NCBI GenBank assembly: GCA_029248525.1
Contig: JAQWJE010000013.1
Span: forward strand, 1 to 64,000
Direction: 5' to 3'
DNA: 64,000 nt
From: Candidatus Binatia bacterium
GTDB taxonomy: Bacteria; Desulfobacterota; Binatia; UBA12015
The notes under the pieces were generated by a model, which worked only from the letters and a program-made list of their open reading frames with translations, was not told the origin of the DNA and searched no databases. Below are positions 20,690-32,437 of this stretch, in pieces. The position numbers and the translations under genes were made by a program. Numbering within the stretch: the first letter of the stretch is position 1; the number at the start of each line of letters is the position of its first letter.

Positions 20690-20821
20690 CTCACTTTCCT
20701 TTCTAACGATCCGTCGGCCTCCGTACCAGCATGGCGCCTTGCAAAGAAAATGTACTGGCAACCGCGTCGTTCTGCGGTAAGCTGTGGGCGGTCCGTGTTC
20801 CAAGGCGGACAGCCACTCGTC

Positions 20822-23254
20822 ATGAGAAAAATTCTGCCGATTTTCCTGATTCTGATCCTTATGCCGGCGACCAGTTTTTGGGCGACTCCGGTGCACGGGC
20901 AGGAAGCTCATAGCGCCGCGCGGCATTGGAACGAGCAGGCTTTGGCGGCAGTTCGGCTCGATTTTGCTCGCCCTACCGTCATTGCGCGGAACCTTTTTCA
21001 TCTTTCCATCGCGATGTACGACGCGTGGGCTGCGTACGATGAGGTGGCTGCGCCGGTGCTGTTTGGAGAAAGACCCGTCTCGGTCGATCCTGCCATGGAT
21101 CGCGAGATTGCAGTCAGCTTCGCGGCTTATGGCGTCTTGCGGTCTCGATTCGCCGGTTCGCCGAATGCAGGGGCGACTCTGTCGGCACTCGAAAACCAGA
21201 TGATCGCACTCGGCCATGACCCGACGAATCAGACTCTTGTCGGCGATTCGGCTCAGGCCGTCGGAAATCGTATCGCTGCTCGCGTCCTCGAATTCGGGCG
21301 AACCGATGGGGCGAACGAGGCCGGAGATTTCGAGAACCGATGGTACACTCCCGTGAACCCGCCATTGCTCCCGGCATTGCCGGGGAATCCGGATCTGGTC
21401 AATTGGAACCAATGGCAGCCTCTGGCGCTTTCGTTTTTTGTGGACCAGTCCGGAAATATAATCATTGGCGGCTCGCCCGATTTTCTCAGCCCGGAATGGG
21501 GCGACGTGACCCCCTTCGGTCTTTCGCCCATCGATCGGACGCTTCGCCAGCGGGCCGGCAACACCTGGACGGTATGGATGGATCCTGGTCCGCCGCCCTT
21601 GATGGGATCGGACAGGGAAGACGAATATCGCCGAAATTTTGAAATGGTCCTCGCGTGGTCGAAGCACCTCTCGCCGGATAATGAGGCCGTTTGGGATATT
21701 TCCCCCGCCGGTATTGGTGCTGCCTACGTCCCGGACTCGGCCGCCGACTGGGAAGATTTCTATAATTTCACGGAAGGCGGGGACGGCTCGACGGGTTATC
21801 CCGCGAACCCGGTTTCCGGTGAAATCTATACGCCACAGCTCGTCCAGCGCGGTGATTATGTCCGCGTTCTGGCGGAGTTTTGGGCGGATGGCCCGGGCTC
21901 GGAAACTCCTCCGGGGCATTGGTTTCAGATTCGGAATCAAGTGATGGACCATCCACAGTTCGAGAGACGGATGGGCGGTGCAGGACCGGAAATCGAGCCT
22001 CTGGAATGGGATACGAAATCCTACCTGCTTCTCGGCGGGGCGATGCATGATGCGGCGATCACGGCATGGAGCCTCAAGGGTTTTTACGATTTCATTCGAC
22101 CGATTTCCGTCATTCGCGCCATGGCCGAGCGCGGTCAGAGCTCGGACCCCGCGCAAGCGTCCTATCATCCGGAGGGTCTCCGGCTGATTCCGGATTTGAT
22201 AGAAATGGTGACTTACGAGACGACTCGAGTTCGGAAGAAGCACCGACACCTCCGGGGGAATGAGGGCAAAGTAGCCGTCCATGCCTGGCGCGGGCCCGAT
22301 TTCATCAATAATCCACTCCGCGATACCGCGGGGGTCGGATGGATCCTGGCCGAGGAATGGTGGCCCTATCAGCGACCGTCTTTTGTAACCCCGTTTTTTG
22401 CGGGGTACGTGTCCGGCCATAGTACATTCAGTCGAGCCGCGGCCAACGTTTTGCATCGCATTACTGGCTCGCCATATTTCCCCGGGGGACTCGCAGAATT
22501 CGTCGCCGAGAAGAATGAATTCCTGGTTTTCGAAGACGGCCCCAGTGAAACGGTCCGTCTGCAGTGGGCCTCCTATTATGATGCGGCCAATCAATGCTCT
22601 CTCTCCAGGATCTGGGGCGGAATTCATCCTCCGGCAGATGATCTCCCCGGCCGCGAGATTGGGGATCAGGTGGCTCTGGGAGCCTGGGATCGCGCACAGC
22701 AGTATTGGACGGGCGCAGTTCCCGGTCTTTCGATCGCGCTATTCGAATTGCCGATCGCGCAGGAAGACCTCTTCTACGAAGTCGATCTCGGGATTGCCGG
22801 GGGGACGACACCGTACGAATGCCGGTTGATCTCCGGTGATCTACCCGAGGGATTGGTCCTGACGGCGGATGGTCGCATTCGGGGCACGCCGGAGCGGCGC
22901 CGTCGAGCTGAAACGATCGTGATTGGTGTCGAGGATGCCTTGGGCGTGCCAGCCCAGCGATCCTTTGAAATCGAGTCCGTGAGCGCGATGAACGTCGGTG
23001 CCCGGCGATTCCGTCGGGGCCGCGAGGGCAAGAAATATAAAATGCGCTTGCGTCCAAAACGCGGCGTTCCTCCCTACTCAATTTCGATCGCGGCGGGTGC
23101 TCTTCCTGCAGGACTTTTCATCAACGATGAAAAATATCGAGTCGAGGGTACGCCCAGCGAGTCCGGCTTCTTCCCGCTGACCTTGGAAATCCAGGATTCT
23201 ATCGGAGCAAAGCGCACGCTGCAGGGTGAACTGTTCGTTCGACCGGCGAAGTAA
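20822..23254 (+). CDS. Vanadium-haloperoxidase/PAP2-like secreted protein with two C-terminal Ig-type modules
   Basis: This protein of about 810 residues has a signal peptide (ILPIFLILILMPATSFW). A helical haloperoxidase-like domain follows. The vanadate/phosphate-binding motifs are RPSF, then GYVSGHSTFSRAAA (catalytic His in SGH) and SRIWGGIHPPADD with the second Arg and His. The usual Lys seven residues before the first Arg is replaced: the segment reads EEWWPYQRP. The last 170 residues hold two putative-Ig (He_PIG-like) repeats with G-LP-GL and G-P patterns, which often serve as surface adhesion or spacer modules. Enzymes of this superfamily oxidise halides with peroxide or hydrolyse phosphate esters; which applies here is unclear. 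The ATG at 20822 starts the signal peptide; an in-frame ATG at 20750 is less likely. Confidence 0.8.
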   Translation: MRKILPIFLILILMPATSFWATPVHGQEAHSAARHWNEQALAAVRLDFARPTVIARNLFHLSIAMYDAWAAYDEVAAPVLFGERPVSVDPAMDREIAVSFAAYGVLRSRFAGSPNAGATLSALENQMIALGHDPTNQTLVGDSAQAVGNRIAARVLEFGRTDGANEAGDFENRWYTPVNPPLLPALPGNPDLVNWNQWQPLALSFFVDQSGNIIIGGSPDFLSPEWGDVTPFGLSPIDRTLRQRAGNTWTVWMDPGPPPLMGSDREDEYRRNFEMVLAWSKHLSPDNEAVWDISPAGIGAAYVPDSAADWEDFYNFTEGGDGSTGYPANPVSGEIYTPQLVQRGDYVRVLAEFWADGPGSETPPGHWFQIRNQVMDHPQFERRMGGAGPEIEPLEWDTKSYLLLGGAMHDAAITAWSLKGFYDFIRPISVIRAMAERGQSSDPAQASYHPEGLRLIPDLIEMVTYETTRVRKKHRHLRGNEGKVAVHAWRGPDFINNPLRDTAGVGWILAEEWWPYQRPSFVTPFFAGYVSGHSTFSRAAANVLHRITGSPYFPGGLAEFVAEKNEFLVFEDGPSETVRLQWASYYDAANQCSLSRIWGGIHPPADDLPGREIGDQVALGAWDRAQQYWTGAVPGLSIALFELPIAQEDLFYEVDLGIAGGTTPYECRLISGDLPEGLVLTADGRIRGTPERRRRAETIVIGVEDALGVPAQRSFEIESVSAMNVGARRFRRGREGKKYKMRLRPKRGVPPYSISIAAGALPAGLFINDEKYRVEGTPSESGFFPLTLEIQDSIGAKRTLQGELFVRPAK

Positions 23255-24253: not shown

Positions 24254-26176
24254 TTACTCTCTCTCGGCTGCTCCAGCAGCGGCCCAAGTCTCGAACATGG
24301 CTGCATAGCGACCTTTTTGGAAGATCAGCTCTTCGTGGGTTCCAATTTCAACTATCCGGCCATCATCGACGACTCCGATTCGATCGGCTCTTTGTGCTGT
24401 GGCCATTCGGTGGGCGATGATAATCGCGGTGCGGCCCTCAAGAAGGATGTCGAGAGCTTGTTCAATGCGGGCCTCCGAGCGGAGGTCGAGATTGGAGGTG
24501 GCTTCGTCCAGGACCAGCAGTCTTGGTTCGGCGAGAAAGGCCCGAGCCAGAGCGAGCAACTGTCGCTCCCCTGCGGAAAGAGTGACGCCTCGTTCATGAA
24601 CCATGGTATGGATCCCCTCCGGAAGTTTTTGGACCTGCTCGATCACACCGACGGCGCGGCAGGCGTCGAGAACCTCGTCATCGGTCGCATCGGGGCGGGC
24701 AAAAGCGACATTGTCCCGGACTGAACTGGCAAAGAGAAAAGGCTCCTGCGGGATCACACCGACCTGAGATCGAAGAGAGCGAAAGGTGATGTCGCGAAGG
24801 TCGTGCCCGTCGATCCGCACACTACCTCGGTCGGGCTCGTAGAAGCGAGATACCAGTTTGGCGATTGTGGATTTCCCTGATCCGGTCGAGCCCACCAGAG
24901 CAAACGTTTCGCCGGGGCGAATTTGCAAGTTCAGATTTTCCAGAACCTGCTGGTCCTTGGCGTAGGAAAAGTCCAGGTTCTCCAGTTCGATCGCCCCGTG
25001 AATCGGAGGAAGTTCGTAGGCTTCGGACTTCTGACGAACTTCAGGGGCAACGGCGAGAAATTCTCGCAACTTCACGACGGCCGCACCACCTTGTTGGTAA
25101 ACTGAATATAATTGCACGAGTTGTTGAATGGGCGAGAAAAATGCCGTCAGATAGAGAATGAAGGCGGCAAGATCGCCCACGGTCAATTCTCCTTGCAGGA
25201 CCATATTGCCGCCCACGAAAAAGAGGATGGACTGGCCCAAAATGCCGACCATTTCGCTCCCTGGGCCGTATAATGCGTTCACCCGGGAGGTAGCTTCATT
25301 TGCCTCTCGATAGTCTCCGACAATATTCCGGTGCTCGACGGTATTATAAGCGTTGCGGTTGAAGGCAGTGACCGTTCGGATCCCGGCCAGGTTTTCTTGC
25401 AGGTGGGCGAGAACATCCGCAATTCTGTCCCGCACCGCGAGAAAGCGATCGGCCGAAGCGCTACGGAACCAAAGCGTCATTACGGTCATCGCTGGAATCA
25501 CCGAGAGCAGGAGAATCAGTGCCAGCTTGACGTTCAGAGTGAGAATAAAAGCTGTGACCACGAGCAAAGTGAAAATCTGCACGGCAAGCTGCACGAGTCC
25601 TTCATGGAACAATTGGGCCAGGGACATGGGGTCGCTGGTCATCCGGCTGAACAGAACGCCGCCCTTTTCCTGTGTGAAGAAACCGAGAGATAGACGTTGC
25701 AGGTGGGTAAAGAGGCGAACGCGGAGGCGAACCATCAGGTCGGCACCCACTCGGGTGGTGACAATGATCCGCGCTCGAGATGTGAGAATCGTGATTCCGA
25801 TCAGGACGAGATAGGTGAGGGCCACGCCTACGAGGACATCAAACTTTCCGGCGCGAATTCCCGAGTCGATGGCGATCTTTGTGAGCAGAGGCCCTGCTTG
25901 AAGCGCGAGCGTTTCGAGAACAACCAAACCGAGAGCACCGCCGAGCGCGAATTTATGAGGAGCCAGAAATCGCCAGAGCCCGAAGGGGCGACGGTCGTAA
26001 TCCTCGGGGTCGAATTCAATCTCTCGGCGAGGAATCTCGGGTTCATCCTCGAGAACCCGATCAACCTTCTCGCGCAACTCCTCGGGTACACCAGCAAACG
26101 GAAGGTTCTGCCCTCCCTGTCCTCCCAGACCTCCGAACATCGGTCCCGGGGCAAAGCCGCCACCGCCAAAACTCAT
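24254..26176 (-). CDS. ABC exporter half-transporter, subunit B (consensus Walker B, altered signature)
   Basis: This 640-residue protein has a six-helix membrane domain fused to an ATPase domain. A Gly/Phe/Pro-rich leader (SFGGGGFAPGPMFGGLGGQGG) and an acidic stretch precede the membrane part, which starts near residue 70. The ATPase has Walker A GSTGSGKST, Q-loop VGVIPQEPFLF, Walker B LLVLDEATSNLD with the catalytic Glu, and the switch His in IIAHRMATAQ. The signature is LSAGERQ instead of LSGGQ. The ATG overlaps the stop of the companion gene (ATGA), so the two subunits are translationally coupled and very likely form a heterodimer. It would export lipids, peptides or drugs; the cargo is not deducible. 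Confidence 0.9.
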   Translation of the reverse strand: MSFGGGGFAPGPMFGGLGGQGGQNLPFAGVPEELREKVDRVLEDEPEIPRREIEFDPEDYDRRPFGLWRFLAPHKFALGGALGLVVLETLALQAGPLLTKIAIDSGIRAGKFDVLVGVALTYLVLIGITILTSRARIIVTTRVGADLMVRLRVRLFTHLQRLSLGFFTQEKGGVLFSRMTSDPMSLAQLFHEGLVQLAVQIFTLLVVTAFILTLNVKLALILLLSVIPAMTVMTLWFRSASADRFLAVRDRIADVLAHLQENLAGIRTVTAFNRNAYNTVEHRNIVGDYREANEATSRVNALYGPGSEMVGILGQSILFFVGGNMVLQGELTVGDLAAFILYLTAFFSPIQQLVQLYSVYQQGGAAVVKLREFLAVAPEVRQKSEAYELPPIHGAIELENLDFSYAKDQQVLENLNLQIRPGETFALVGSTGSGKSTIAKLVSRFYEPDRGSVRIDGHDLRDITFRSLRSQVGVIPQEPFLFASSVRDNVAFARPDATDDEVLDACRAVGVIEQVQKLPEGIHTMVHERGVTLSAGERQLLALARAFLAEPRLLVLDEATSNLDLRSEARIEQALDILLEGRTAIIIAHRMATAQRADRIGVVDDGRIVEIGTHEELIFQKGRYAAMFETWAAAGAAERE

Positions 26177-28050
26177 GGTGCCGCCTCTTCTTCTTCCTCA
26201 TCGCTGAAATGAGCCAATACCTCGGCATAGCGCGGCTCGGTGCGCATCAGGTCGAGGTGTTTTCCATCGGCAACGACCTGACCGTCATCGATCAGAATCA
26301 CTCGGTCGGCCAGGGCGATTGTCGAAAGTCTGTGCGCGATGATCATGGTGGTTCGGTTCGCGAGCAGGTCACGAAGTTTGTCATGAATGGAACGCTCAAC
26401 GTGGACATCGATGGCGCTGGTCGCGTCATCGAGAATCAGGATTTTTGGATTCGCGAGGAGAGATCGCGCGATGGAGATTCGCTGTCGCTGTCCGCCAGAC
26501 AGGTCGTAGCCCCGCTCGCCGATCACCGTATCGAAACCATCGGGCAGATTTTCTATGAACTCGAATGCCCCCGCAGCACGCGCAGCTTCTCGAACCTCCG
26601 CTCGCGTGGCTGAGGGTCGAGCGTAGGCAATATTTTCATGGATCGCAGCGGTGAAAAGAAATGGATCTTCCGCAACGACGCCTACCTGTGCGCGCAGGCT
26701 GTTCAGGGTGAAATCCCGGATGTCTTCGCCATCGACCAGGACAGCACCATCATTGACTTCATAGAACCGAGCCAGAAGTCGCCCTATGGTCGATTTTCCA
26801 CAGCCTGTCCGTCCGACAATCGCTATCGATTCTCCGGCCGGAATTTCCAGAGAGAAATTTTCAAGGACTTGAGGTCCGTCTCCGTAGCGGAAGAAAACAT
26901 TTCTGAACTCGAGAGCGCCGGAGGGTTGGTGCAGGTCGGTCGCATGCATCCGGTCCACAACCTCGGGATCCTCGTCGAGGACTTCATAGATCCGCAGGGC
27001 AGAGGCAGCAGCACGTTGGAGCATCATCAGGAAAAATCCGAACATCCGAAATGGCGCCTGAAGCATTACGACATAGGTCGTGAAGGCAACGATCGCACCG
27101 ATCGTGAGGTGCCCTTCGAGCGTCAGCCAGCCACCGACGAGCAGCACCATGGCCGTCCCGATTCTGGGCATGGCTTCCATGGCTGGCGCGTTGGCGGCCT
27201 GAACCTCGGCCTGTCGCACATTGATCCATTGGAGCTGACGCGCGATCTGATCAAATTGCTCGATTTGAGAACGCTCGCCGGCAAATGCCTTTACGACCCG
27301 GACGCCGGATAAATTCTCCTCAACGGTAGTGGCCAGATCGGCCTGTCGCGCCTGCACAATCCAGGAGATCGGGAAGGTGAGGCGGCCGAGCCGCGCGCCG
27401 AGGATCGCGACAAAGGGAAGGGGAAGAATCGTGACGATCGTCAGCGGAATGCTGATGGTCAGCATGAGTCCGATAGCCGCAGCGAAGGAAAGCAGGGTGA
27501 GCGACATAAGAGGTCCGAAAGTCAGAAAGAGTTGTAGCGTGCGGATATCGGAGTTGGCGCGTGAGATGAGTTGCCCGGATTGTACGCGGTCATAGAAGGA
27601 AAAAGAAAGGCGGGAGAAATGCTCGAAAAGCATCACGCGCAGGTCGTTCTCGATCGCGTAGGCTACCCGAAACAGGAAGGATCGACTGATATACCCACCG
27701 ACACCGCGCAGAAGTCCCAGCCCTGCAATCAGAAAAATGAATCCCGATAGCGGCTCAGTGCGCTGGTCGAGGGCTTGATCGATGGCAGCCATCATGATGC
27801 GGGGCACGGCAACTCCGCAGAGCAGGCTGACAACGGAGGCCCCAAGCGCGATTGCAAAGATACCGCGGTGGCCTGCGACCACCGGCCAGAGTCGTCGAAT
27901 CCAGCCCAGATCGCGGTCCGGATGAATGGTGCCGCGAGGGGCGGCGAAGCGAGCATGCGCGTCGGCTGCTGCCGAAGGTTCTGGCTCTGGAGCAGACCCC
28001 GAGGCGGTGGGATCGGAACTGGTGGTGTTGACCGGCACTGTGGGGGTCAT
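26173..28050 (-). CDS. ABC exporter half-transporter, subunit A (consensus signature, Asp in place of catalytic Glu)
   Basis: This companion subunit has about 625 residues. It begins with a Pro/Ala/Ser-rich cytoplasmic leader of about 45 residues. A six-helix membrane domain (from about residue 60) and an ATPase domain follow. Walker A is GRTGCGKST, the Q-loop VGVVAEDPFLF, and the signature a normal LSGGQRQ. Walker B reads ILILDDATSAID, so the catalytic Glu is Asp. AGGCGG six bases before the ATG at 28050 supports this start; an in-frame ATG-like codon at 28077 would add nine residues. Together with the next gene it forms an asymmetric heterodimeric exporter. It is 123 bases downstream of the TMEM220/propeller gene on the same strand. 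Confidence 0.9.
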   Translation of the reverse strand: MTPTVPVNTTSSDPTASGSAPEPEPSAAADAHARFAAPRGTIHPDRDLGWIRRLWPVVAGHRGIFAIALGASVVSLLCGVAVPRIMMAAIDQALDQRTEPLSGFIFLIAGLGLLRGVGGYISRSFLFRVAYAIENDLRVMLFEHFSRLSFSFYDRVQSGQLISRANSDIRTLQLFLTFGPLMSLTLLSFAAAIGLMLTISIPLTIVTILPLPFVAILGARLGRLTFPISWIVQARQADLATTVEENLSGVRVVKAFAGERSQIEQFDQIARQLQWINVRQAEVQAANAPAMEAMPRIGTAMVLLVGGWLTLEGHLTIGAIVAFTTYVVMLQAPFRMFGFFLMMLQRAAASALRIYEVLDEDPEVVDRMHATDLHQPSGALEFRNVFFRYGDGPQVLENFSLEIPAGESIAIVGRTGCGKSTIGRLLARFYEVNDGAVLVDGEDIRDFTLNSLRAQVGVVAEDPFLFTAAIHENIAYARPSATRAEVREAARAAGAFEFIENLPDGFDTVIGERGYDLSGGQRQRISIARSLLANPKILILDDATSAIDVHVERSIHDKLRDLLANRTTMIIAHRLSTIALADRVILIDDGQVVADGKHLDLMRTEPRYAEVLAHFSDEEEEEAAP

Positions 28051-28172
28051 CAGTAACCGCCTGTGCGCTGCATGCAATCAGCGCGATGTCGGAAGGTGAA
28101 TTTGTGGGTGCACCCGGTTCGATACGTGCTTGTACGGGCGTCGAGCCGGGAGCGGATGCCCGGTGGCGTTCG

Positions 28173-29750
28173 CTATCGCCCGAGCAGGCTGCGCTGCGAG
28201 AACCGGCGACGTAAAATTCGGGTCGGGCTGCAGGACTTTTTTTGCGCAAAGGATTCGCTCGAGACCCGAACGGCTTCGACGCGGCCTTCCAGCGGTAGGT
28301 CTATCCTGTCGGGGCCCGGGATCTGTCGGCCGGAAGTGCCCATTCCGGTGGAGATTAATAGCCATCCACCGGCCGATGACAGGTTTGTTGGCGTATCGAG
28401 TTGTCGGGCGATCTCCTCGACGGTTCCGGCAGTGCGATCGATTTGCAGAAGGCGACCGGAAAAACGACGGAATCCGCCATGCGTTGTTGTGTCAGCCATT
28501 TCGCGGCGATTGCGGACGGGGCCGACAAAGCTGTCGCAGAGTTCGAGGATCCAGAGCGTATTCCCATCGGCTGAAAGCTCGAGATCGGTCGGGGCGGTCA
28601 GGCCGGTAACCAGATCGCGTGTGGTGCCTGTCTGCGGATCGACGCTCACAACCTTTCCGGCTCCGTGAATGATTTCGGTGCCGTCCCCGCCGGCTTCACC
28701 GAGTGGCGAACCGGAGAAAAGGCTCACGAGAAGTTCGTCGGTCCGGGGGTCATGACGAAGGTAGCCCGGAACCGCTTCCTGCCCCCCCTCGAGTGCAGGA
28801 AAGGAGGTGATAGTGACCGGAGCGCCGCTTTCGGAAAGCCTCAACAGTTCATTGGCGGAGCTCGATACCGCAAACCATCGTTTTTCTCCGGGATGCCAGA
28901 CGATATCATTCAGATTTCCTGCCACGTCGCCTACCGTGCGCACGCGACTGTCGTCGATGGTGAGAATTCGCGAGGGTCCTTCGTAATAGGCCGCGGTGGC
29001 GCGAATCTCATTTTCGCCAGCTTTGATCGCCGCCACCCCGAAAACTTCGTCCCGGCGAACCAGCGCGAGAAGATTTTGCGAATGCTGATTGGCCAGAAGG
29101 GTTGCCGGTGACCGGGGATGTCCACCGGCGTCGAGTTGGAAGCGGAGGATTCCCCCATCGGATCGCTCGGTCCCGGTGCCGGCGACCGCCACCAGAAGCG
29201 TTCCGTCGTTCGCGAGGAGTGTCCCCCGGGGGTTATGAAGTCGACGAAGTACATGGCTGCGCGCGGATAATTTTTGCGGGACTTCCGCCGGGATTTGTAT
29301 CGCCTCGATGGGTGGAGGAGCGGACGACCACGGTGTCGCCAGCGCGCAACCTCCGAGAAAGGGAAGCGCCAGAACGAGAATCGCGGCTCGCCTGCTGGTT
29401 GTTGCCGATTCTTTCGCGTTTCTCCTACGCAGAAAGGCCGTCCAGCTCGCGGCGAGCAGCAGGCCCGCGCTTTCGCGGGCGCGTTCGGCGCCGAGATCGG
29501 CCATTCCGAAACTGGCGTAGGACGAAAGTGGGGCCCCCACAAGATCGCCAAGCAGGGGAATCGCGGGCAATAGGCATGTCAGAAGCCAGAAATTCAGCAG
29601 AATCGGAGAGATTCGGCCAAGTCCGAAGGCCAGAGATACGCCTGCGGTGCCGCTGTAGATCAGGACCCAGGGCAGGGAATCCGGATCATTGATTTGCACC
29701 CCGGCAAACGCGAGAAACACCAAACTAGCGACGATCTCCAACCAGCGCAT
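28173..29750 (-). CDS. TMEM220-like membrane domain fused to a ScyD/NHL-type beta-propeller
   Basis: This protein of about 525 residues has two parts. Residues 1-110 hold three or four membrane helices with the segment VQINDPDSLPWVLIYSG, which strongly recalls the TMEM220 family. A further helix (about 122-137, ILVLALPFLGGCALA, lipobox-like) leads to a large extracytoplasmic part. From about residue 150 repeated blades appear (HNPRGTLLANDGTLLVAVAG, LTAPTDLELSADGNTLWILE, LDTPTNLSSAGG), resembling ScyD/ScyE or NHL-type propellers. The gene may be a fusion of two usually separate proteins. The ATG at 29750 is chosen; an in-frame TTG at 29780 has no better ribosome site. It heads the ABC-exporter operon, so it may act on the envelope or on the exporter's cargo. 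Confidence 0.7.
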   Translation of the reverse strand: MRWLEIVASLVFLAFAGVQINDPDSLPWVLIYSGTAGVSLAFGLGRISPILLNFWLLTCLLPAIPLLGDLVGAPLSSYASFGMADLGAERARESAGLLLAASWTAFLRRRNAKESATTSRRAAILVLALPFLGGCALATPWSSAPPPIEAIQIPAEVPQKLSARSHVLRRLHNPRGTLLANDGTLLVAVAGTGTERSDGGILRFQLDAGGHPRSPATLLANQHSQNLLALVRRDEVFGVAAIKAGENEIRATAAYYEGPSRILTIDDSRVRTVGDVAGNLNDIVWHPGEKRWFAVSSSANELLRLSESGAPVTITSFPALEGGQEAVPGYLRHDPRTDELLVSLFSGSPLGEAGGDGTEIIHGAGKVVSVDPQTGTTRDLVTGLTAPTDLELSADGNTLWILELCDSFVGPVRNRREMADTTTHGGFRRFSGRLLQIDRTAGTVEEIARQLDTPTNLSSAGGWLLISTGMGTSGRQIPGPDRIDLPLEGRVEAVRVSSESFAQKKSCSPTRILRRRFSQRSLLGR

Positions 29751-30767: not shown

Positions 30768-31793
30768 ATGCGCCTCGTTGGCCTTGCACCCATCTTTTTG
30801 ACCACTCTTCTTCTTGCCACCAGCGCGATCGCTTCGGGCGGGGTTTGTGGGAACAACGTGGTCGAACTTGGCGAAACTTGTGACGACGGGAACCATGCGA
30901 ATGGCGATGCCTGTTCAAGTCGCTGTCAGGTCGAAGCCTCGCAGACCAAAGAGCAGCAGAAGTGTATTGTTGTGCTCAACGGTTTGACGACCAAGTTGGT
31001 AGATACGCAGGCGCAGGTCAGTTCGTCCTGTTTCAAGAATGCCGGCCGTAAAAAACTTCGAGGAGACCAGAGTTTGTCGGATTGTCTGGTGATCGAGGGG
31101 GGGCGTAAATCGCGCAGCATCGCCGCGCGGATCAAGGTCGCTCAGGACGGTACCCCGCAATTCCCGGGTCGCACCAAATGTCCCGAGACGCCGAACTTTG
31201 GCTACGCTGATGATGAGGTTATCGCGGCGGCGGCACTCGCGGAGGCGAGGGCCTTCCTGCAAAAACTGATCGTGGCAACCCCCGAGGAAATTGTTGTCGA
31301 TTCTACTGTGCCGGGAAATAAATACGCAGCGCTCTGCCAACTTCTTCTGCTCAAGACCTCGGATCAGGTCCTGCGCAGCCAAATGAAAGAGTTTGCCTCT
31401 TGCCAGAAACGGCTGCTCGGAGCTTCGTCCGGACCCGCGGTTTCTGCGGAGGATTTGGAGGGGTGCTTCGCGGAGAGCCGGACCGACGCAAAGGGCCGCG
31501 TGGAGAAGGCCCGCGCCCGAATCGAACGAATTTATGACCGCAAATGTTCTGCTTTCGATGTGGGATTGAACGAGGTGATGGGCGTATCCGAGGAACAGCC
31601 GATTTCCGTTTTCGCCGAGGATGCGGTGGTCGCTGGCCGATGCACGGCTTGTCGGATCTTGAACGCAACGGAAGGTTTGGAGCAGGACTGCGATTTTTGG
31701 GATGATGAGGCAAGAAACGAGTCCTGTGCCGAGGAAGGAATGCCTTCGCCCCGGGGCGCATTCGTTGACGGCCCAATCTTCGCTCGTTTCTGA
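30768..31793 (+). CDS. Secreted cysteine-rich protein with one Myxococcus-type repeat
   Basis: This 341-residue protein starts with a signal peptide (PIFLTTLLLATSAIA). The first mature segment is a DUF4215-type Cys repeat (VCGNNVVELGETCDDGN, then GDACSSRC). Two copies of a Cys-containing helical domain follow, each with spaced Cys and basic stretches: about residues 65-150 (KCIVVLNG...SSCFKN...SDCL) and about 185-265 (ALCQLL...SCQKRL...GCFAE, ending DRKC). The C-terminus is MPSPRGAFVDGPIFARF. Similar Cys/SKGK-type segments and an SP-x-GAFVDG tail recur in the next two genes. GGAG lies nine bases before the ATG. The protein is probably exported and disulphide-bonded. Function unknown. Confidence 0.75.
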   Translation: MRLVGLAPIFLTTLLLATSAIASGGVCGNNVVELGETCDDGNHANGDACSSRCQVEASQTKEQQKCIVVLNGLTTKLVDTQAQVSSSCFKNAGRKKLRGDQSLSDCLVIEGGRKSRSIAARIKVAQDGTPQFPGRTKCPETPNFGYADDEVIAAAALAEARAFLQKLIVATPEEIVVDSTVPGNKYAALCQLLLLKTSDQVLRSQMKEFASCQKRLLGASSGPAVSAEDLEGCFAESRTDAKGRVEKARARIERIYDRKCSAFDVGLNEVMGVSEEQPISVFAEDAVVAGRCTACRILNATEGLEQDCDFWDDEARNESCAEEGMPSPRGAFVDGPIFARF

Positions 31794-31975
31794 CGCAGGT
31801 AATCGCAGGGATTGCAAAATTACTTAGACACCCCATTTTCAGCTGATAGCTCGATTATCGCTTGACGCCGTGCCCGATGGTGTGGTCTTGGACAGGGAGG
31901 TCGCGGAGGCAGATGCGTTTGGCAAATTGTCTGCCGTGCCTCGAAAAACTTTTCGCAGACTTGGGGGATTCAAAG

Positions 31976-32437
31976 ATGTTGAGGAAGATGACGCGGTGGC
32001 TTCTGGCCGCATCCTTGATTGTCGGCCTTGCCGGTTGGGGTAGCGCAGCACCCTATTCGTCCGGTCCTTTGCCGCCTGAGTTCACCAACCCTGGAGATCA
32101 GGCCTGGCTGCCCACGGAACCCAAGATGTTCGTCAACCAGATGGCGATCTCGAAGGAGCAGACCAAACTCCTGCAAAGAAGCGCCAAATGCTACACGATC
32201 GGCGCAAAGAATTACTCCAAAGGGAAGCCGACTCTCTTGTTCGAATGCCTCGCGTCGGTGGAAGCGAAATATCAGCTGAAGCTGGAGAAAATCCGAACCA
32301 AACCCGAAGGGCTGCCGGTCTGTCACGCGTATGAGGAAGAAGCGGCGCTTTCGATGGACTCGATCGGTGCTGCGATTCCGGACCTTCTATGTGCCTCCCC
32401 CGAGGGTGCATTTGTCGATGGGGCGGTGATCCTTTGA
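31976..32437 (+). CDS. Small secreted protein sharing a Cys domain with its neighbours
   Basis: This precursor has 153 residues. A signal peptide (WLLAASLIVGLAGWGSA) is followed by a Pro-rich linker. One Cys domain follows: KCYTIGAKNYSKGK, then FECLASVEAKYQLKLEKI and GLPVC. It ends LLCASPEGAFVDGAVIL, closely matching the tail of the upstream gene product. The GAKN-x-SKGK segment recurs in the downstream giant protein. GGGGGA seven bases before the ATG at 31976 sets the start; the frame is open from 31862. The stop codon overlaps a possible TTG start of the next gene (TTGA) and the genes are 17 bases apart, so the two are almost certainly an operon. Confidence 0.7.
   Translation: MLRKMTRWLLAASLIVGLAGWGSAAPYSSGPLPPEFTNPGDQAWLPTEPKMFVNQMAISKEQTKLLQRSAKCYTIGAKNYSKGKPTLLFECLASVEAKYQLKLEKIRTKPEGLPVCHAYEEEAALSMDSIGAAIPDLLCASPEGAFVDGAVIL

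Follow-up and report, generated by a model that had tools for sequence, protein, structure and literature searches.

One intact gene in a genome of Candidatus Binatia bacterium joins a TMEM220 domain to a six-bladed β-propeller, and this joining is a real fusion. The gene lies in a stretch of 64,000 nucleotides (GenBank assembly GCA_029248525.1, contig JAQWJE010000013.1, positions 1 to 64,000), hereafter the window. The same continuous frame was found in eight genomes of a single family, namely the window genome (G000) and seven further ones, and in sister genera the fused gene is encoded inside the ebo operon. Fusion, repeated adjacency and a shared operon are usual signs of shared function. 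Taken together, the fusion, the adjacency of the separate genes and the position in ebo operons suggest a role in small-molecule traffic on the outer side of the inner membrane, and they provide a testable clue to the role of TMEM220-type proteins, a family also found in humans.

Architecture of the fusion gene

The initial annotation had described a TMEM220 domain joined to a ScyD/NHL-type propeller at 28173-29750, and both profiles and the open frame agree with these coordinates. The gene is read from the minus strand, with its stop codon ending at 28173 and 0 internal stops across the 525 codons in the frame reading of the window; the plus strand of the same interval contains many stops. 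A frameshift or an internal stop between the two parts was looked for and found neither in the window copy nor in the seven further genomes. Because the frame is continuous in these seven genomes, a frameshift artefact is very unlikely as the source of the fusion. In-frame ATG, GTG and TTG codons are absent between residue 85 and Cys135 of the window copy, and its propeller is therefore without an ordinary start of its own. In-frame start codons of these three kinds exist at the same junction in six fusions of other species, so a second start is possible there.

Table 1. Positions of the fusion gene, its parts and the neighbouring exporter genes in the window
Feature	Position	Strand	Basis
TMEM220-propeller fusion gene, 525 aa, ATG at 29750	28173..29750	-	Open frame; TMEM220 match; ScyE_fam match below cut-off
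TMEM220 domain (residues 12-107), predicted four-helix membrane domain	29430..29717	-	PF15071; AlphaFold2 helices
Internal signal-peptide-like segment (residues 108-135)	29346..29429	-	RRR...RR, hydrophobic run, lipobox-like LGGC with Cys135
Six-bladed β-propeller, ScyE-like / SMP30-DFPase-NHL fold (about residues 156-497)	28260..29285	-	Profile; AlphaFold2; fold alignments
Two ABC exporter halves	24254-28077	-	Conserved pair

The N-terminal part matched the Pfam profile PF15071 (TMEM220) over residues 12-107 with 47.1 bits (E 4e-12), above the gathering cut-off of 27 bits. The AlphaFold2 model of the window protein, built from an alignment of 13 sequences, has a mean pLDDT of 78.6, with values below 50 in the linker and some loops. 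It places helices at residues 2-19, 25-43, 49-72 and 86-115, followed by a mostly strand domain. Four helices were also predicted for the stand-alone TMEM220 protein of G253 (pLDDT 92). Helix 4 of the window copy falls under the hydropathy threshold used (17-residue mean 1.3), whereas the helix-4 region has a passing segment in six fusions of other species, and the predicted topology of the window copy is therefore less sure than that of the other fusions. In a 15-row alignment Q20, N22, D23, W29, Y33, E90, R93, E94 and G97 are invariant, and P24 and D25 are kept in at least 90% of rows (G253 numbering). The most conserved residues form the Q-x-N-D-P-D motif after helix 1 and the E-x-x-R-E motif at the start of helix 4. 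If the N-terminus is cytoplasmic, the helix count would put both the N-D-P-D loop and the E-x-x-R-E segment at the outer, periplasmic side. A Foldseek search with the TMEM220 part alone was empty at a limit of E 0.001, and the TMEM220 profile matched none of the PDB sequences. VIA-align Z scores of up to 10.2 to helix bundles were set aside as uninformative for a four-helix protein.

We know of no established molecular function of TMEM220. None of four names tried for the bacterial family occurs in the open-licence papers searched, and the TMEM220 literature, among the matches listed, was mostly human cancer work. Human TMEM220 is reported in PMC6979480 to reside at the Golgi, which becomes fragmented when the protein is knocked down, with an effect on secretion.

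The C-terminal part matched the NCBIfam model ScyE_fam (NF033206) over residues 253-469 (E 8e-14) with 51.9 bits, below the curated cut-off of 80 bits. Several relatives exceed this cut-off, namely G253 (86.5) and, scored with neighbouring stretches, G250 (92.2), G254 (81.7) and G340 (81.5); G257 (74.3), G251, G255, G258, G261 and G268 remain under it. The propeller model (residues within 152-507) aligned to six-bladed propellers with Z of 25.3-28.1 and rmsd of 2.4-3.2 over 242-270 residues in the 50 rows listed. Fold matches include Campylobacter Cj1041c, a Nostoc lactonase-family protein, NHL domains, DFPase and Diels-Alderases. At the level of the predicted structure, these alignments fix the fold class as a six-bladed propeller of the SMP30/gluconolactonase/DFPase type, but not its function. 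As regards a catalytic metal site, invariant Asn and Asp residues are present in the propeller alignment. Matches to a viral fold library were rejected as unrelated-looking propeller and repeat proteins. Among PDB sequences, phmmer with the window protein gave a best E of 0.12; the propeller profile retrieved mostly designed propellers (best E 2.8e-6), with strictosidine synthase at 0.0095.

In the propeller tree the window protein stands on a branch distant from a clear ScyE_fam protein. With long rows for G000 and G253 and a number of open forks, the trees do not decide whether the fusion had a single origin; one of two outgroup rows was left out because of stops, and the place of the remaining one is unsure.

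Other open reading frames of the window were noted in passing. Two neighbouring ones, at 30768-31793 and 31862-32437, share a similar short tail, GAFVDG, and the former has a weak match to DUF4215, below the cut-off. At 20750-23254 an 834-aa frame resembles, by eye, a phosphatase/vanadium-haloperoxidase-type protein with C-terminal Ig-like repeats.

The junction and the possible processing of the precursor

A lipobox-like helix leading into the propeller had been proposed, and such a segment is present: in the window copy a linker of the form RRR...RR is followed by a hydrophobic run and then by LGGC at residues 132-135, between the two parts. The same annotation had put the propeller outside the inner membrane. 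The signal-like segment agrees with this, and a periplasmic location is accordingly the predicted one. A Cys at the lipobox-like position is found in all seven distinct fusions within an otherwise variable linker. Its column coincides with the lipoprotein-type signal Cys of three of the four stand-alone propellers (G268, G340 and G261, the exact starts of the latter two genes being unsure); in the fourth, that of G253, the start is signal-like but this Cys is missing.

The strict lipobox is [LVI][ASTVI][GAS]C. None of the seven fusions contains it, and LGGC of the window copy has Gly at -2. A relaxed pattern occurs in 7/7 fusions; it was set after the sequences had been inspected, and a match to it arises in 7-37% of shuffled single linkers. 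Conservation of the Cys across three genera is suggestive only as a sign of an internal lipoprotein signal.

These observations bear on whether the protein is cut or stays whole. In the latter case the fifth hydrophobic segment would simply span the membrane as a helix and tether the propeller, an enzyme or receptor domain of TMEM220, in the periplasm, with the function otherwise unchanged. This possible but somewhat unlikely reading draws on the lack of a strict lipobox in any of the fusions and on segment 119-142 of the window copy, which passes the hydropathy threshold for a membrane helix. Evidence against an uncut protein is the constant Cys in a variable linker, which falls in the same column as the signal Cys in three of the four stand-alone propellers. 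Cutting at Cys135 is slightly favoured over an uncut protein on these sequence features. No literature on internal lipoprotein signals in polyproteins was found among the open-licence papers searched, and the fused form would be a clean test case for the processing of a mid-chain lipoprotein signal.

Distribution of fused, split and separate genes

A profile of the window-type propeller (threshold E 1e-20) had one match each in 12 of 145 genomes of the class, and the TMEM220 profile was found in 14 of 148. The survey of how often the two domains are fused or adjacent, suggested by the initial annotation, gave 11 of the 12 propeller genomes: eight carry the fusion, and three carry adjacent genes, which overlap by ATGA in G253 and are convergent neighbours in G268 and G340. 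The twelfth propeller genome, G261, gave no TMEM220 match, and three other genomes (G341, G278 and G352) have TMEM220 with no match to the window-type propeller. Co-occurrence has a hypergeometric P of 4e-13 by genome and of 9e-6 with one vote per genus; kinship is uncorrected in both values, and nine of the 11 genomes sharing the two domains belong to one family.

All fusion carriers come from the family of the window genome. G355 is a second assembly of the window's species; G250 and G254 represent one genus (g175), and G251, G255, G257 and G258 another, so that the frame is kept across three genera. Stops inside the genes were first indicated for G251, G253 and G268. They lie outside the genes: the G251 fusion runs through 501 codons with no stop, and the propeller genes of G253 and G268 extend to their own stops. 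Independent genes, which had been named as evidence against the fusion if seen in close relatives, do occur, in the same family in G253 and in a second family of the class in G268 and G340. The split genes mark the two parts as partners that can be separated, and they are no sign that the fusion is an error.

The split state bears on a further explanation, namely that operon neighbours were joined by loss of a stop codon and that the product is tolerated, with no functional meaning. The overlapping two-gene state of G253, one step from a fusion, fits such an origin. We consider it very unlikely, given that the frame is kept in three genera and eight genomes and that the pair is adjacent even when its genes are convergent.

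Outside the class survey, TMEM220 was found in 1 of 247 and 1 of 395 genomes in two draws from the phylum, both times only in G000; few genomes in these draws were from this class (10 and 16 among those listed, counting G000). A plasmid collection searched with the propeller and TMEM220 of G253 gave no match, and of 24 stretches in viral contigs scanned with the TMEM220 alignment none was confirmed. The scan of genome contigs confirmed a single locus, 100% identical.

Stand-alone TMEM220 genes have recurring neighbours of their own, taken from mechanically called open reading frames that include spurious ones. A TonB-dependent receptor lies beside them in G268 (locus L030), G340 (L056) and G352 (L059), and at about 2 kb in G341 (L057); this second recurring neighbour might hint at uptake. 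An aminotransferase-like gene of one cluster, its type read from the sequence, adjoins TMEM220 in G278 (L032) and G352 (L058). G278 and G352 have two TMEM220 matches each, and their EboE genes are on other contigs.

Genomic context, proposed mechanism and known systems

The fusion had been reported to precede an ABC exporter, which holds for the window's species: the ABC frame starts on the same strand with TTG at 28077 or ATG at 28050, 95 or 122 bases downstream of the fusion. The further claim that this operon context ties the fusion to export fared worse. G251 and G257 carry orthologues of the two exporter halves (72-74% identical) next to each other at a locus that lacks the fusion, and for this reason the link of the fusion to the exporter looks local. 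Neither half had a tblastn match (E 1e-20) near the module in G250, G251, G253, G254, G255, G257 and G258, within stretches of 13.5-18 kb around it. By profile the pair resembles MsbA, although its 446 bits stay under the cut-off of 602, and no capsule permease was recognised by any search made. That the fusion is an accessory to this exporter pair is thus highly improbable, even though the spacing and strand are the same in both assemblies of the window's species and, in a part of PMC6282210, the ebo model itself invokes a capsule-type ABC permease.

BtuG works with a BtuB-like TonB receptor for vitamin B12. The least probable alternative is a comparable role in nutrient uptake instead of export, with a periplasmic or surface propeller serving such a receptor: the receptors adjoining TMEM220 in G268, G340 and one copy of G352, or about 2 kb away in G341, are of one cluster, that of G268 is BtuB-like (180.6 bits, cut-off 599.7) and BtuG2 ranks 39 in the Foldseek list of fold matches, but the receptor cluster is absent from the stretches around the fusions and from G253, and the fold match is generic among propellers.

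A different link to export exists, judging from gene order, in the place of the module within the ebo operon. In G251, G253, G255, G257 and G258 the TMEM220/propeller gene or genes lie between eboB and eboD, in the order eboA-eboB-[module]-eboD-eboE-eboF-eboC on one strand. EboE of G253 scored 410 bits (cut-off 250), and the gene after this match scored 541 bits (cut-off 333) with a 3-dehydroquinate-synthase model; we take the latter to be EboD. The other ebo genes were assigned by order and type in comparison with sections of PMC5133447 and by similarity to G253. EboE was found in 15 of 145 genomes of the class, and stretches around all 15 contain TMEM220/propeller genes inside the ebo cluster in 5/5 cases in the window's family and in 0/10 elsewhere; among these ten, four stretches are incomplete (G263 with only D, E and C near a contig end, G279 without A, G281 without C or D and G269 without D). 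PMC5133447 mentions operons of ABDEFC order and, without analysing them, inserted genes that are uncharacterised, and the terms 'TMEM' and 'NHL' are absent from the main text of the ebo papers searched.

EboE and EboB had no match in the window's species (G000 and G355, 98.9% and 63% complete), in G250 (88%) or in G254 (70%), and all four genomes keep the fusion. Since neither protein was matched, the window's species, as far as these searches reach, keeps the module without an ebo operon.

Passages of PMC6282210 report that Nostoc ebo mutants retain the scytonemin monomer in the cytoplasm, posit that periplasmic ScyE dimerises this monomer and suggest, as the authors' hypothesis for future testing, that a capsule-type ABC permease moves a lipid carrier. 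According to a portion of PMC9235831, the EboC homologue UbiA-297 farnesylates quinoline acids.

The reading that we tentatively prefer is a two-part envelope module, in which an inner-membrane TMEM220 protein and a lipid-anchored periplasmic propeller, obtained from one precursor cut at Cys135, would act on a small molecule, with ebo where it is present. TMEM220 would be a four-helix protein of the inner membrane, and the lipoprotein signal peptide of the propeller would have been made internal by fusion of the neighbouring genes. The chain may be inserted through the TMEM220 helices, whereupon the next hydrophobic segment would act as a signal, be lipidated and probably be cut at Cys135 by signal peptidase II, giving two proteins in equal amounts. 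This pair could then act at the outer face of the inner membrane, with a small molecule as its substrate, a periplasmic role proposed by analogy. Where the ebo operon is present, the module might receive or process what the ebo products deliver, for which the posited handling of the scytonemin monomer by ScyE in Nostoc offers a parallel; in the window's species, in which EboB and EboE were not found, it would serve another substrate supply. Several results count against this reading: four genomes keep the fusion without an EboE or EboB match, ten of the 15 ebo stretches of the class hold neither TMEM220 nor the propeller, the window's propeller scores below the ScyE_fam cut-off and branches far from a clear member, helix 4 of the window copy is weakly hydrophobic, the strict lipobox is absent and the G253 propeller lacks the Cys. 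A broader generalisation appears doubtful at present: TMEM220 would be the inner-membrane partner that hands small molecules to a periplasmic processing protein, or anchors it, and would form the outer-face part of metabolite traffic in ebo operons with this insert, the fused form being a polyprotein cut at an internal lipoprotein signal. If it held, it would open a way to the function of a family with a human member whose mechanism is unknown.

Compared with known systems, the window protein resembles the PF15071 family in its match above the cut-off, its four predicted helices and the Q/N/D and E-x-x-R-E residues kept in 15/15 rows, and differs in the propeller fused to it, relatives being fused or adjacent. 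With the ScyD/ScyE family (NF033206) it shares propeller kinship by profile and, in relatives of the window gene, ebo genes as neighbours; however, it scores 51.9 against a cut-off of 80 and has TMEM220 fused on. ScyE is assigned to the β-propeller clan (in part of PMC4870267) and is targeted to the periplasm in Nostoc (in part of PMC6282210). It has an N-terminal signal peptide, whereas the window protein has the lipobox-like segment instead. The ebo operon of A-B-D-E-F-C order accommodates the module between eboB and eboD in five relatives, in contrast to the window's species, which is without an EboE or EboB match. A parallel for the precursor comes from FbcH of Bradyrhizobium, on which no paper was found by title among the matches listed. 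FbcH is a cytochrome b/c1 precursor that is cut into two proteins by ordinary signal peptidase. As in the form proposed here, its multi-helix membrane part is joined through an internal signal sequence to a domain in the periplasm, but its products are respiratory proteins, while the window protein has a lipobox-like site and unrelated domains.
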